Source: Candidatus Peribacteria bacterium
Lineage (GTDB): Bacteria > Patescibacteriota > Gracilibacteria > UBA1369 > LOWO2-01-FULL-3
Length of the DNA stretch: 64,000 nt
Direction of reading: 5' to 3'
Assembly (NCBI GenBank): GCA_943357285.1
Contig: CALRGJ010000007.1
Coordinates: 1 to 64,000, forward strand
Positions within the stretch are counted from its first letter, which is position 1; every line of letters starts with the position of its first letter. The position numbers and the translations under genes are program-made. Positions 62,377 through 64,000 of this stretch are shown one piece after another. Under the pieces are notes generated by a model. It saw only the letters and a list, made by a program, of their open reading frames with translations. It was not told the DNA's origin and did no database searches.

Positions 62377-62406
62377 TTGACATTTTTATTAAACCTTTGA
62401 TACAAT
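62377..62406 (+). promoter_or_regulatory. Sigma70-type promoter of the small structured RNA
   Basis: TTGACA-N18-TACAAT. Confidence 0.75.
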
Positions 62407-62410
62407 AAGT

Positions 62411-62499
62411 GCGGCGTTTGGAGGGTTCGCCCTCTCACGGCTTCTAAGCTGTAGCCAAGCGCCAACTAAGAATCTGCTTCAATAGAAGCGGATTTTTTT
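62411..62499 (+). ncRNA. Candidate small structured RNA (three-way junction plus terminator)
   Basis: P1 GGCGTTTGG/CCAAGCGCC, hairpin AGGG-TTCG-CCCT, hairpin ACGGCT-TCTA-AGCTGT; terminator AATCTGCTTC-AATA-GAAGCGGATTTTTTT; promoter upstream; no ORF. Confidence 0.75.
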
Positions 62500-62975
62500 C
62501 AATCCTCTTCTGGCAATCCATCATGCAGCAATCTACTCATAGTCTTTTTATTCATGCCCCAAAACGGAATAATGCTCCAGAAAAACTTATGCCCATTATC
62601 TATTTGCTTAACAATTACTCTGACGCGATTTCTTTTAACTACTGCAATAAATTCATAGTATTTTACTGGCTTCATCACTGTTTCAGTTCGACCATGCATT
62701 CGTATTCTCTCAAATTTATTAGTTTCAAGTATTCCTTGCAAAGTATGAGAACACCTTAAAATTTCCGGCACAAGACTGAGTAGTTTAAATCTCATGTATT
62801 GATCCTGTTCAGAGCGAGCCTTTTCACGTCTTTTAAACTTAAGATGTTCTAATCCATGTGAACCAAAGGATATTTTTTCCTTAAAATAAGGACAATGGAC
62901 TTCCAGTAAAGATTTGTATAGCGCTTCGCCCTTTTCTTTTATTTCTCTGAATTGCTCATCACTAAATTTTAGCAT
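62499..62975 (-). CDS. Uncharacterised small protein (158 aa), weakly reminiscent of PBECR/RelE-like barrels
   Basis: Complete ORF; 'GLEHLKFKRREKARSEQDQYMRFKLLSLVPEILRCSHTLQG'...'KYYEFIAVVKRNRVRVIVKQIDNGHKFFWSIIPFW'. Confidence 0.6.
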   Translation of the reverse strand: MLKFSDEQFREIKEKGEALYKSLLEVHCPYFKEKISFGSHGLEHLKFKRREKARSEQDQYMRFKLLSLVPEILRCSHTLQGILETNKFERIRMHGRTETVMKPVKYYEFIAVVKRNRVRVIVKQIDNGHKFFWSIIPFWGMNKKTMSRLLHDGLPEED

Positions 62976-63072
62976 TTTAGTCGAATAATAATATTTCTGA
63001 ACCTGTAAGGAATCCTTACAAGTTCATGCTTATTATAGGTGAGCATACACTCACCGTCAACAAATTAGATAA

Positions 63073-63190
63073 CAAAAAATAGTCCGACTAGCGGACTACT
63101 CCCGACCACGTTCCTAGGCTGGTTGTCCCAGTCACGCCACCATCCGGTGACAGTTCAGAATACAGGTCTTTGTACTTAATAGTCTATATA
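63073..63190 (-). ncRNA. Candidate terminator-bounded ncRNA or attenuated leader
   Basis: No ORF; GC-rich hairpin-forming stretch ending in TAGTCCG-CTAGT-CGGACTA-TTTTTT on - strand. Confidence 0.5.
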
Positions 63191-63240: not shown

Positions 63241-64000
63241 TCAAAACAACCTCCCTTGCGCCCCTTTCCCATTCACCGCCGCCACATACGCGCAATAATC
63301 ACAGGCCTCACCAGCACCCGGAATCTCCTCACCCCGCAAGCACTCATATATCTCGCCAATCTTTCCCTCCACCCACGAGTCATCTCCCTTATACGGAATC
63401 AGCTTCACCGTAAAATCCAACCTTCCATCAAATCCCGCCTTATCCGTCACACCATTGCAATACACAAAATATCCCACCTCCGACACCGCAAATCCATTCT
63501 TACGAAAGAGCCACTGATACACCTCCATCTGTCGCTTGTAACCATCCTGCCACTCGGCATCAAGACTCACTTCACCATCCTTAGAAGTCGCTTTGTAATC
63601 CACAATTATGAGCTCGCCTCCCGTAGCCACCCACACATCATCCACGCCACCGGTCACTAGGAGATTTGTTTCCGGCACTTGATAGGTGATACCTCTGCGC
63701 ATGGAATCGCGCCACTCATCCATTTGCGCATGTTTGAACGGCACGGCATTTACACCCGCCGCTTTCATTAGGGGATGAGCCTCACCTTTGGCCCTATAGC
63801 TATCAAACTCTTTTTTGAGCAACGTATCCACAGCCGAATTCAACGAAAACGGAAAACTCGGCGGCTGCCCCACACCCAATCTGCGATCTAGATAAAAACA
63901 TCTCGAACACTTGATGAACAAATCAATCTTCGACCGACTCAGGCGAAAAGGCGAGGTAGCCGTCGGATTATAAAGATTCCGTGTGCGTTGTGGTTTGTAG
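63241..64000 (-). CDS. PD-(D/E)XK nuclease family protein (5' end beyond the window)
   Basis: Frame open to the edge (...PFRLSRSKIDLFIKCSRCFYLDRRLGV); 'TGGVDDVWVATGGELIIVDYKATS...YKRQMEVYQWL'; C-terminal 'CDYCAYV'. Confidence 0.8.
   Translation of the reverse strand, partial: YKPQRTRNLYNPTATSPFRLSRSKIDLFIKCSRCFYLDRRLGVGQPPSFPFSLNSAVDTLLKKEFDSYRAKGEAHPLMKAAGVNAVPFKHAQMDEWRDSMRRGITYQVPETNLLVTGGVDDVWVATGGELIIVDYKATSKDGEVSLDAEWQDGYKRQMEVYQWLFRKNGFAVSEVGYFVYCNGVTDKAGFDGRLDFTVKLIPYKGDDSWVEGKIGEIYECLRGEEIPGAGEACDYCAYVAAVNGKGAQGRLF

Follow-up and report, generated by a model that had tools for sequence, protein, structure and literature searches.

What is encoded at 62377-62499, where a compact RNA gene with its own promoter and terminator had been annotated from the sequence and assigned to no recognised class? 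The gene lies in the window, by which we mean the whole 64,000-nt stretch of Candidatus Peribacteria DNA analysed here. Patescibacteria make up a vast and mostly uncultured part of the bacteria, and their conflict systems are poorly known.

A structured RNA gene without an Rfam family

The first-pass annotation had described a TTGACA-N18-TACAAT promoter, a 9-bp stem (P1) with one G-U pair enclosing two hairpins, and an intrinsic terminator. Promoter, P1, both hairpins and terminator are all found where it had placed them (Table 1). RNAfold, applied to the RNA strand, returns the same structure, a three-way junction followed by the terminator, at -42.1 kcal/mol (z = -5.7, equalled by 0 of 200 shuffles). 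The window RNA scores 80.1 bits with the R2 covariance model, by construction, as its sequence is part of that model. Nearly the whole 1.2-Mb assembly was scanned for units of promoter, three-way junction and convergent gene; the unit in the window was the only clean case, and no further convincing one was found.

Table 1. Coordinates of the RNA gene, its partner gene and neighbouring features in the window
Feature	Position	Strand	Basis
Sigma70-type promoter of the three-way-junction RNA (-35 TTGACA 62377-62382, 18-bp spacer, -10 TACAAT 62401-62406)	62377-62406	+	sequence
Three-way-junction RNA core, 51 nt	62413-62463	+	fold z, covariation, R2 covariance model
P1, GGCGTTTGG / CCAAGCGCC, one G-U	62413-62421 / 62455-62463	+	sequence
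Hairpin 1, AGGG-UUCG-CCCU	62422-62433	+	sequence
Hairpin 2, ACGGCU-UCUA-AGCUGU	62437-62452	+	sequence
Intrinsic terminator (stem-loop about 62471-62492, then seven T 62493-62499)	62471-62499	+	sequence, fold
LPD3-like protein gene, 158 aa, predicted BECR-type endoRNase toxin (His44, Arg54, Ser134)	62499-62975	-	Pfam, Foldseek, AlphaFold2, conservation
DUF3800-IX RNA terminator and remnant of the lost DUF3800 gene (its last bases, + strand AGATAAC)	63067-63099	-	window compared with L005
DUF3800-IX RNA (RF02968), orphan	63100-63168	-	50.4 bits, sister locus L005/L072
PD-(D/E)XK nuclease gene	63241-63999	-	

The suggestions that the RNA is not a tRNA cloverleaf and belongs to no recognised class are borne out: ARAGORN reports no tRNA, RF00005 is not matched, and no family of Rfam 15 reaches its gathering score or gives a credible weak match. 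A tRNA or tmRNA is excluded, as the criteria of ARAGORN and RF00005 are not met. A riboswitch or leader of a downstream gene was rejected because the RNA has a terminator and is followed by a gene that is convergent with it. The definition of an integron attC site, a folded single-stranded DNA site that is no transcription unit and adjoins unrelated cassette genes, is not fulfilled, given the conserved promoter, the selection of the fold on the RNA strand and the partner specificity. The model of the DUF3800-IX RNA (RF02968, gathering score 36.8 bits) has no match at 62413-62463, nor any there at E<=10, and matches the window only at 63100-63168.

The segment 62427-62441 (TCGCCCTCTCACGGC) has exactly the sequence of the tRNA-Glu(CUC) anticodon arm in related genomes and is highly conserved among the RNA's close homologues, which may reflect chance, tRNA mimicry or target mimicry.

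The convergent partner gene

The reading of this stretch as a structured RNA with its own promoter and terminator stands, but it was incomplete. A gene for a 158-residue protein, missed at first, is convergent with the RNA gene, and the RNA does not stand by itself. The RNA U-tract ends in a T that is the first plus-strand base of the stop codon of the gene, an overlap that recurs in many homologous loci.

The protein matches the Pfam LPD3 profile (PF18798) weakly, with 15.7 bits (E 0.018), which is under the 27-bit cut-off. In a Foldseek search against viral models, LPD3 accounts for three of the five best matches (prob 0.98, 0.91 and 0.82; E 0.014-0.12). The fold matches suggest that the protein is kin to LPD3, despite the Pfam score. 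LPD3 itself has no assigned function (PMC5512222). The AlphaFold2 model (pLDDT 85.5) consists of helices followed by a four-stranded meander; a helix carries His44, and the fourth strand carries Ser134. His44 and a serine or threonine at position 134 are present in all 47 homologues compared, and Arg54 in 45. BECR endoribonucleases consist of an N-terminal helix and a sheet of 4-5 strands, with the histidine in the helix and the Ser/Thr in strand 4 (PMC5512222), and the succession of elements in the model fits this description. RNase activity of the 158-residue protein is a reasonable inference because the placement of His44 and Ser134 is that of the BECR arrangement (PMC5512222). Based on the model, we predict a metal-independent BECR-type endoribonuclease, its activity being inferred and no solved structure being alike: no PDB relative was identified by sequence, and a fold search gave no significant match.

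The protein has no match to DUF3800, and none to the ToxN/AbiQ/CptN/TenpN families in Pfam, NCBIfam, PADLOC or the PDB. No carriers of homologues were found in the phage records and viral contigs searched, which means only that close relatives are missing from those collections.

Linkage of the RNA and the protein across the phylum

The RNA is linked to the protein throughout the phylum. In related genomes, BLAST identified three sequences closely related to the RNA; two of them adjoin a homologue of the 158-residue gene. Homologues of the protein within the order (30-80% identity) have a small RNA on the opposite strand at their 3' ends, of the same shape and different sequence; at locus L039, the RNA beside the homologue was detected by covariance model. 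The protein HMM finds members in 35 of 356 genomes of the class and in 24 of 287 genomes drawn from the phylum. A single folding rule, requiring a convergent three-way junction close to the stop codon, was applied to these genes, with strong homologues defined by an HMM score of at least 90 bits. The junction is present for 34/34 strong homologues and 13/15 weaker ones (47/49 overall). Thus, no strong homologue without the RNA was found among the 34, and the two homologues without a detectable junction are weak and distant. The same rule is met by 53 of 310 other genes of these loci, several of which simply flank the same RNA on its other side. In genome records, a close version of the RNA lies beside all 29 close protein homologues, which come from Peregrini-, Peri-, Nomura-, Adler-, Kaiser-, Taylor-, Magasanik- and Sungbacteria, and from unnamed bins. 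This linkage to one protein family makes it scarcely credible that the RNA is a free-standing, trans-acting regulatory sRNA that merely adjoins the gene, even though such an sRNA would have its own promoter and terminator and would fit the loci where the RNA stands alone (see below).

High protein identity between lineages and patchy presence suggest, in the absence of a species tree, that the RNA-protein pair moves horizontally.

In the genomes of L057, L058, L060 and L061, TGA seems to encode an amino acid, probably Gly. The homologues there also have junction-like RNAs at their 3' ends, some of which fold only weakly.

Covariation, strand and co-evolution

Compensatory changes in P1, named in the first-pass annotation as a check on the fold, were found among the homologous RNAs. 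In a MAFFT alignment of 13 divergent RNAs, 94% of the cells are paired and 11 of 18 pairs have changed on both sides (0/500 shuffles); with the partner slid by one column, pairing is 42-44%. Among 29 distinct close RNAs, 14 have C-G and 15 have U-A at P1 pair 3-55. Within a species, 98% of positions in the outer seven P1 pairs are paired, compared to 47% when strands of different species are combined. In hairpin 2, G-U is the commonest pair at one position (22 of 29 close RNAs). Read from the other strand, this pair would become an A-C mismatch, and the fold is therefore selected on the RNA strand.

The promoter and the layout are conserved along with the fold and the strand. Most homologous RNAs have a promoter of the form TTGA-N16/18-TAnnnT, whose -10 element ends 4-8 nt (about 5) before P1, and promoter scores of the homologous RNAs have a mean of 11.0, compared to 9.1 in shuffles. 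RNA and protein also co-evolve, with a correlation between their distances of Mantel r 0.56 (0/5000, 35 pairs), although this correlation by itself cannot separate co-inheritance from physical interaction.

These regularities bear on whether the element could be a recombination site or the end of a mobile cassette, an attC-like folded single-stranded DNA that resembles an RNA gene by chance. A patchy, horizontally moving module would be compatible with such a site, as would the DinD gene that lies beside a near-identical RNA in G016 (L003). The fixed promoter distance, the terminators, the G-U pairs on one strand only and the tracking of the protein by RNA type are not, and render this explanation very improbable. 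All that the DinD locus retains of the old gene is its final codons: the DinD gene and the LPD3-like genes have in common just ~9 bp directly ahead of the stop codon. It looks like a gene replacement, and DinD was rejected as an alternative partner of the RNA.

RNAs without the protein gene

The RNA is also found without the gene. Covariance-model searches identified intact RNAs without an intact partner gene at L003, L085, L091, L093, L094, L185 and L187. Only the last codons of the partner gene remain at L094 and L085, and the gene is broken at L093. At L185 (1501-1640), two different junction RNAs stand in tandem with one promoter, one terminator and no protein gene, an arrangement like a small antidote array, and no homologue of the protein was detected anywhere in that genome. 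No protein homologue was detected in the draft genomes G016, G059, G386 and G535. At some of the RNA-only loci the gene may simply have been lost recently, without the RNA being a selected survivor, and genes can go undetected in draft assemblies. One R1 match (L092), on a GC-rich contig, was judged false.

Since RNAs occur without the gene and no strong homologue was found without the RNA, the pattern is that expected of an antidote and a poison. We consider it rather probable that the pair is a toxin-antitoxin-like module, with a trans-acting RNA antidote directed against the predicted RNase; transcription, RNase activity, toxicity, binding and neutralisation are inferred. The RNA and the convergent gene would constitute one mobile accessory module. 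The gene would provide the small LPD3-like protein, a putative metal-independent BECR-type endoribonuclease. The RNA would be made from its own strong promoter, end at the stop codon of the gene, fold into the three-way junction, and bind and neutralise its cognate protein in trans, as the RNA antitoxins of type III toxin-antitoxin systems do. The pair thus yields a concrete prediction, an RNase and its RNA antidote, which can be tested with two small genes.

The main rival is a ribonucleoprotein effector, in which the RNA, as cofactor or scaffold, would activate or guide the protein for defence instead of inhibiting it. Tight linkage and co-evolution would suit any obligate RNA-protein partner, and DUF3800 proteins, which occur in the same layout, have an RNase H-like fold and are linked to ncRNAs and Cas12 (PMC10910872). 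However, a cofactor RNA is expected to decay with its protein, and the one-sided pattern therefore speaks against a cofactor. RNAs alone, even a tandem of two types, in genomes without a detected protein homologue are not easily explained by such an effector, and the RNA has no guide-like variable segment. We regard this alternative as unlikely, but not negligible.

Type I-like antisense control, in which the convergent RNA would pair with the 3' end of the mRNA and repress the gene in cis, draws on the convergent layout and the overlap of stop codon and terminator. Yet the RNA ends at the stop codon, so that pairing would need a long mRNA 3' UTR, and what is conserved are stable tetraloops and stems that are closed, not open kissing loops. 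Furthermore, there is nothing to pair with in cis at the RNA-only loci. This mode of control is improbable in our assessment.

Comparison with known systems

The window RNA falls outside the type III families as defined, DUF3800-IX and every other Rfam family. Type III antitoxins are tandem-repeat pseudoknot RNAs located upstream of the toxin and co-transcribed with it (PMC5086642). The logic proposed for the window pair, an RNA antitoxin against a small endoRNase, is that of ToxIN, CptIN and TenpIN. In contrast to those systems, the window RNA is a single, non-repeated three-way junction with its own promoter, on the opposite strand and convergent with the gene. AbiF and its ncRNA behave like a type III system, the RNA neutralising the protein by direct binding (PMC12373285). 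As in the window pair, the abiF RNA (RF03085; RCd22 in C. difficile) is a structured ncRNA linked to an RNase-like accessory protein, but it lies in the 5' UTR, upstream of the gene and on its strand, and contains two repeated motifs. AbiF, unlike the window protein, is Abi_2/Cas13-related. LPD3 of phage and plasmid polyvalent proteins is connected to the window protein by the weak profile match and the best fold matches, whereas the window protein is solo and chromosomal, with a dedicated RNA. The pair is best described as a protein-plus-structured-RNA module of a new variety, apparently undescribed and phylum-wide.

The neighbouring DUF3800-IX RNA

The window also contains an orphan DUF3800-IX RNA about 640 bp from the three-way-junction RNA. 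The CS line of RF02968 has the same three-way-junction topology as the window RNA, and six of eight RF02968 loci are convergent with and abut a DUF3800 gene, the other two being orphans. G002, the sister genome, has retained the DUF3800 gene at the same locus; the window lacks the gene and preserves the RNA together with the final bases of the gene. Judged from this sequence comparison, the DUF3800-IX RNA of the window represents a clean gene loss with the RNA kept. G002, in turn, is without the LPD3-like gene, and at the equivalent place (L005:1444-1545) it has a junction RNA that has diverged strongly and whose terminator is conserved. Each sister genome therefore has one of the two proteins and, without its protein, the RNA of the other kind. 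L005 also contains a second orphan DUF3800-IX RNA at 1566-1628.

DUF3800-IX and other DUF3800 RNAs of Rfam resemble the window RNA in that P1 encloses two hairpins and the RNA is convergent with the accessory gene and abuts its stop codon. Like the window type, the DUF3800-IX RNA persists as an orphan after gene loss. They differ in sequence, in the absence of a covariance-model match and in the partner, which is LPD3-like rather than DUF3800. The LPD3-like/RNA and DUF3800/RNA pairs may be variants of one kind of system. Because an unrelated protein is accompanied by an RNA of the same topology in the same layout, and one window holds both kinds, the comparison offers a testable idea for the DUF3800 RNAs in Rfam, for which we know of no assigned mechanism. 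More tentatively, LPD3-like and DUF3800 proteins could be interchangeable effectors of one kind of Patescibacteria conflict system, consisting of a nuclease-like protein and a convergent, promoter-bearing three-way-junction RNA that neutralises the protein in trans and, once the protein has been lost, is retained as immunity, even collected into tandem arrays. We hold this broader proposal to be possible, with the odds somewhat against it. If true, it would account for the DUF3800 RNAs and represent a toxin-antitoxin architecture of a new type.

At L131, L141 and L146, DUF3800 genes that lack an Rfam match also have convergent three-way junctions, which are probably unlisted DUF3800-type RNA families. 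A pattern-based DUF3800 class, in which 7 of 19 have a three-way junction, is too crude to give a rate. A divergent DUF3800-family gene is located just outside the window (G000:C7:64310-64873), and together with the PD-(D/E)XK nuclease gene it forms a small cluster of accessory nuclease-like genes.
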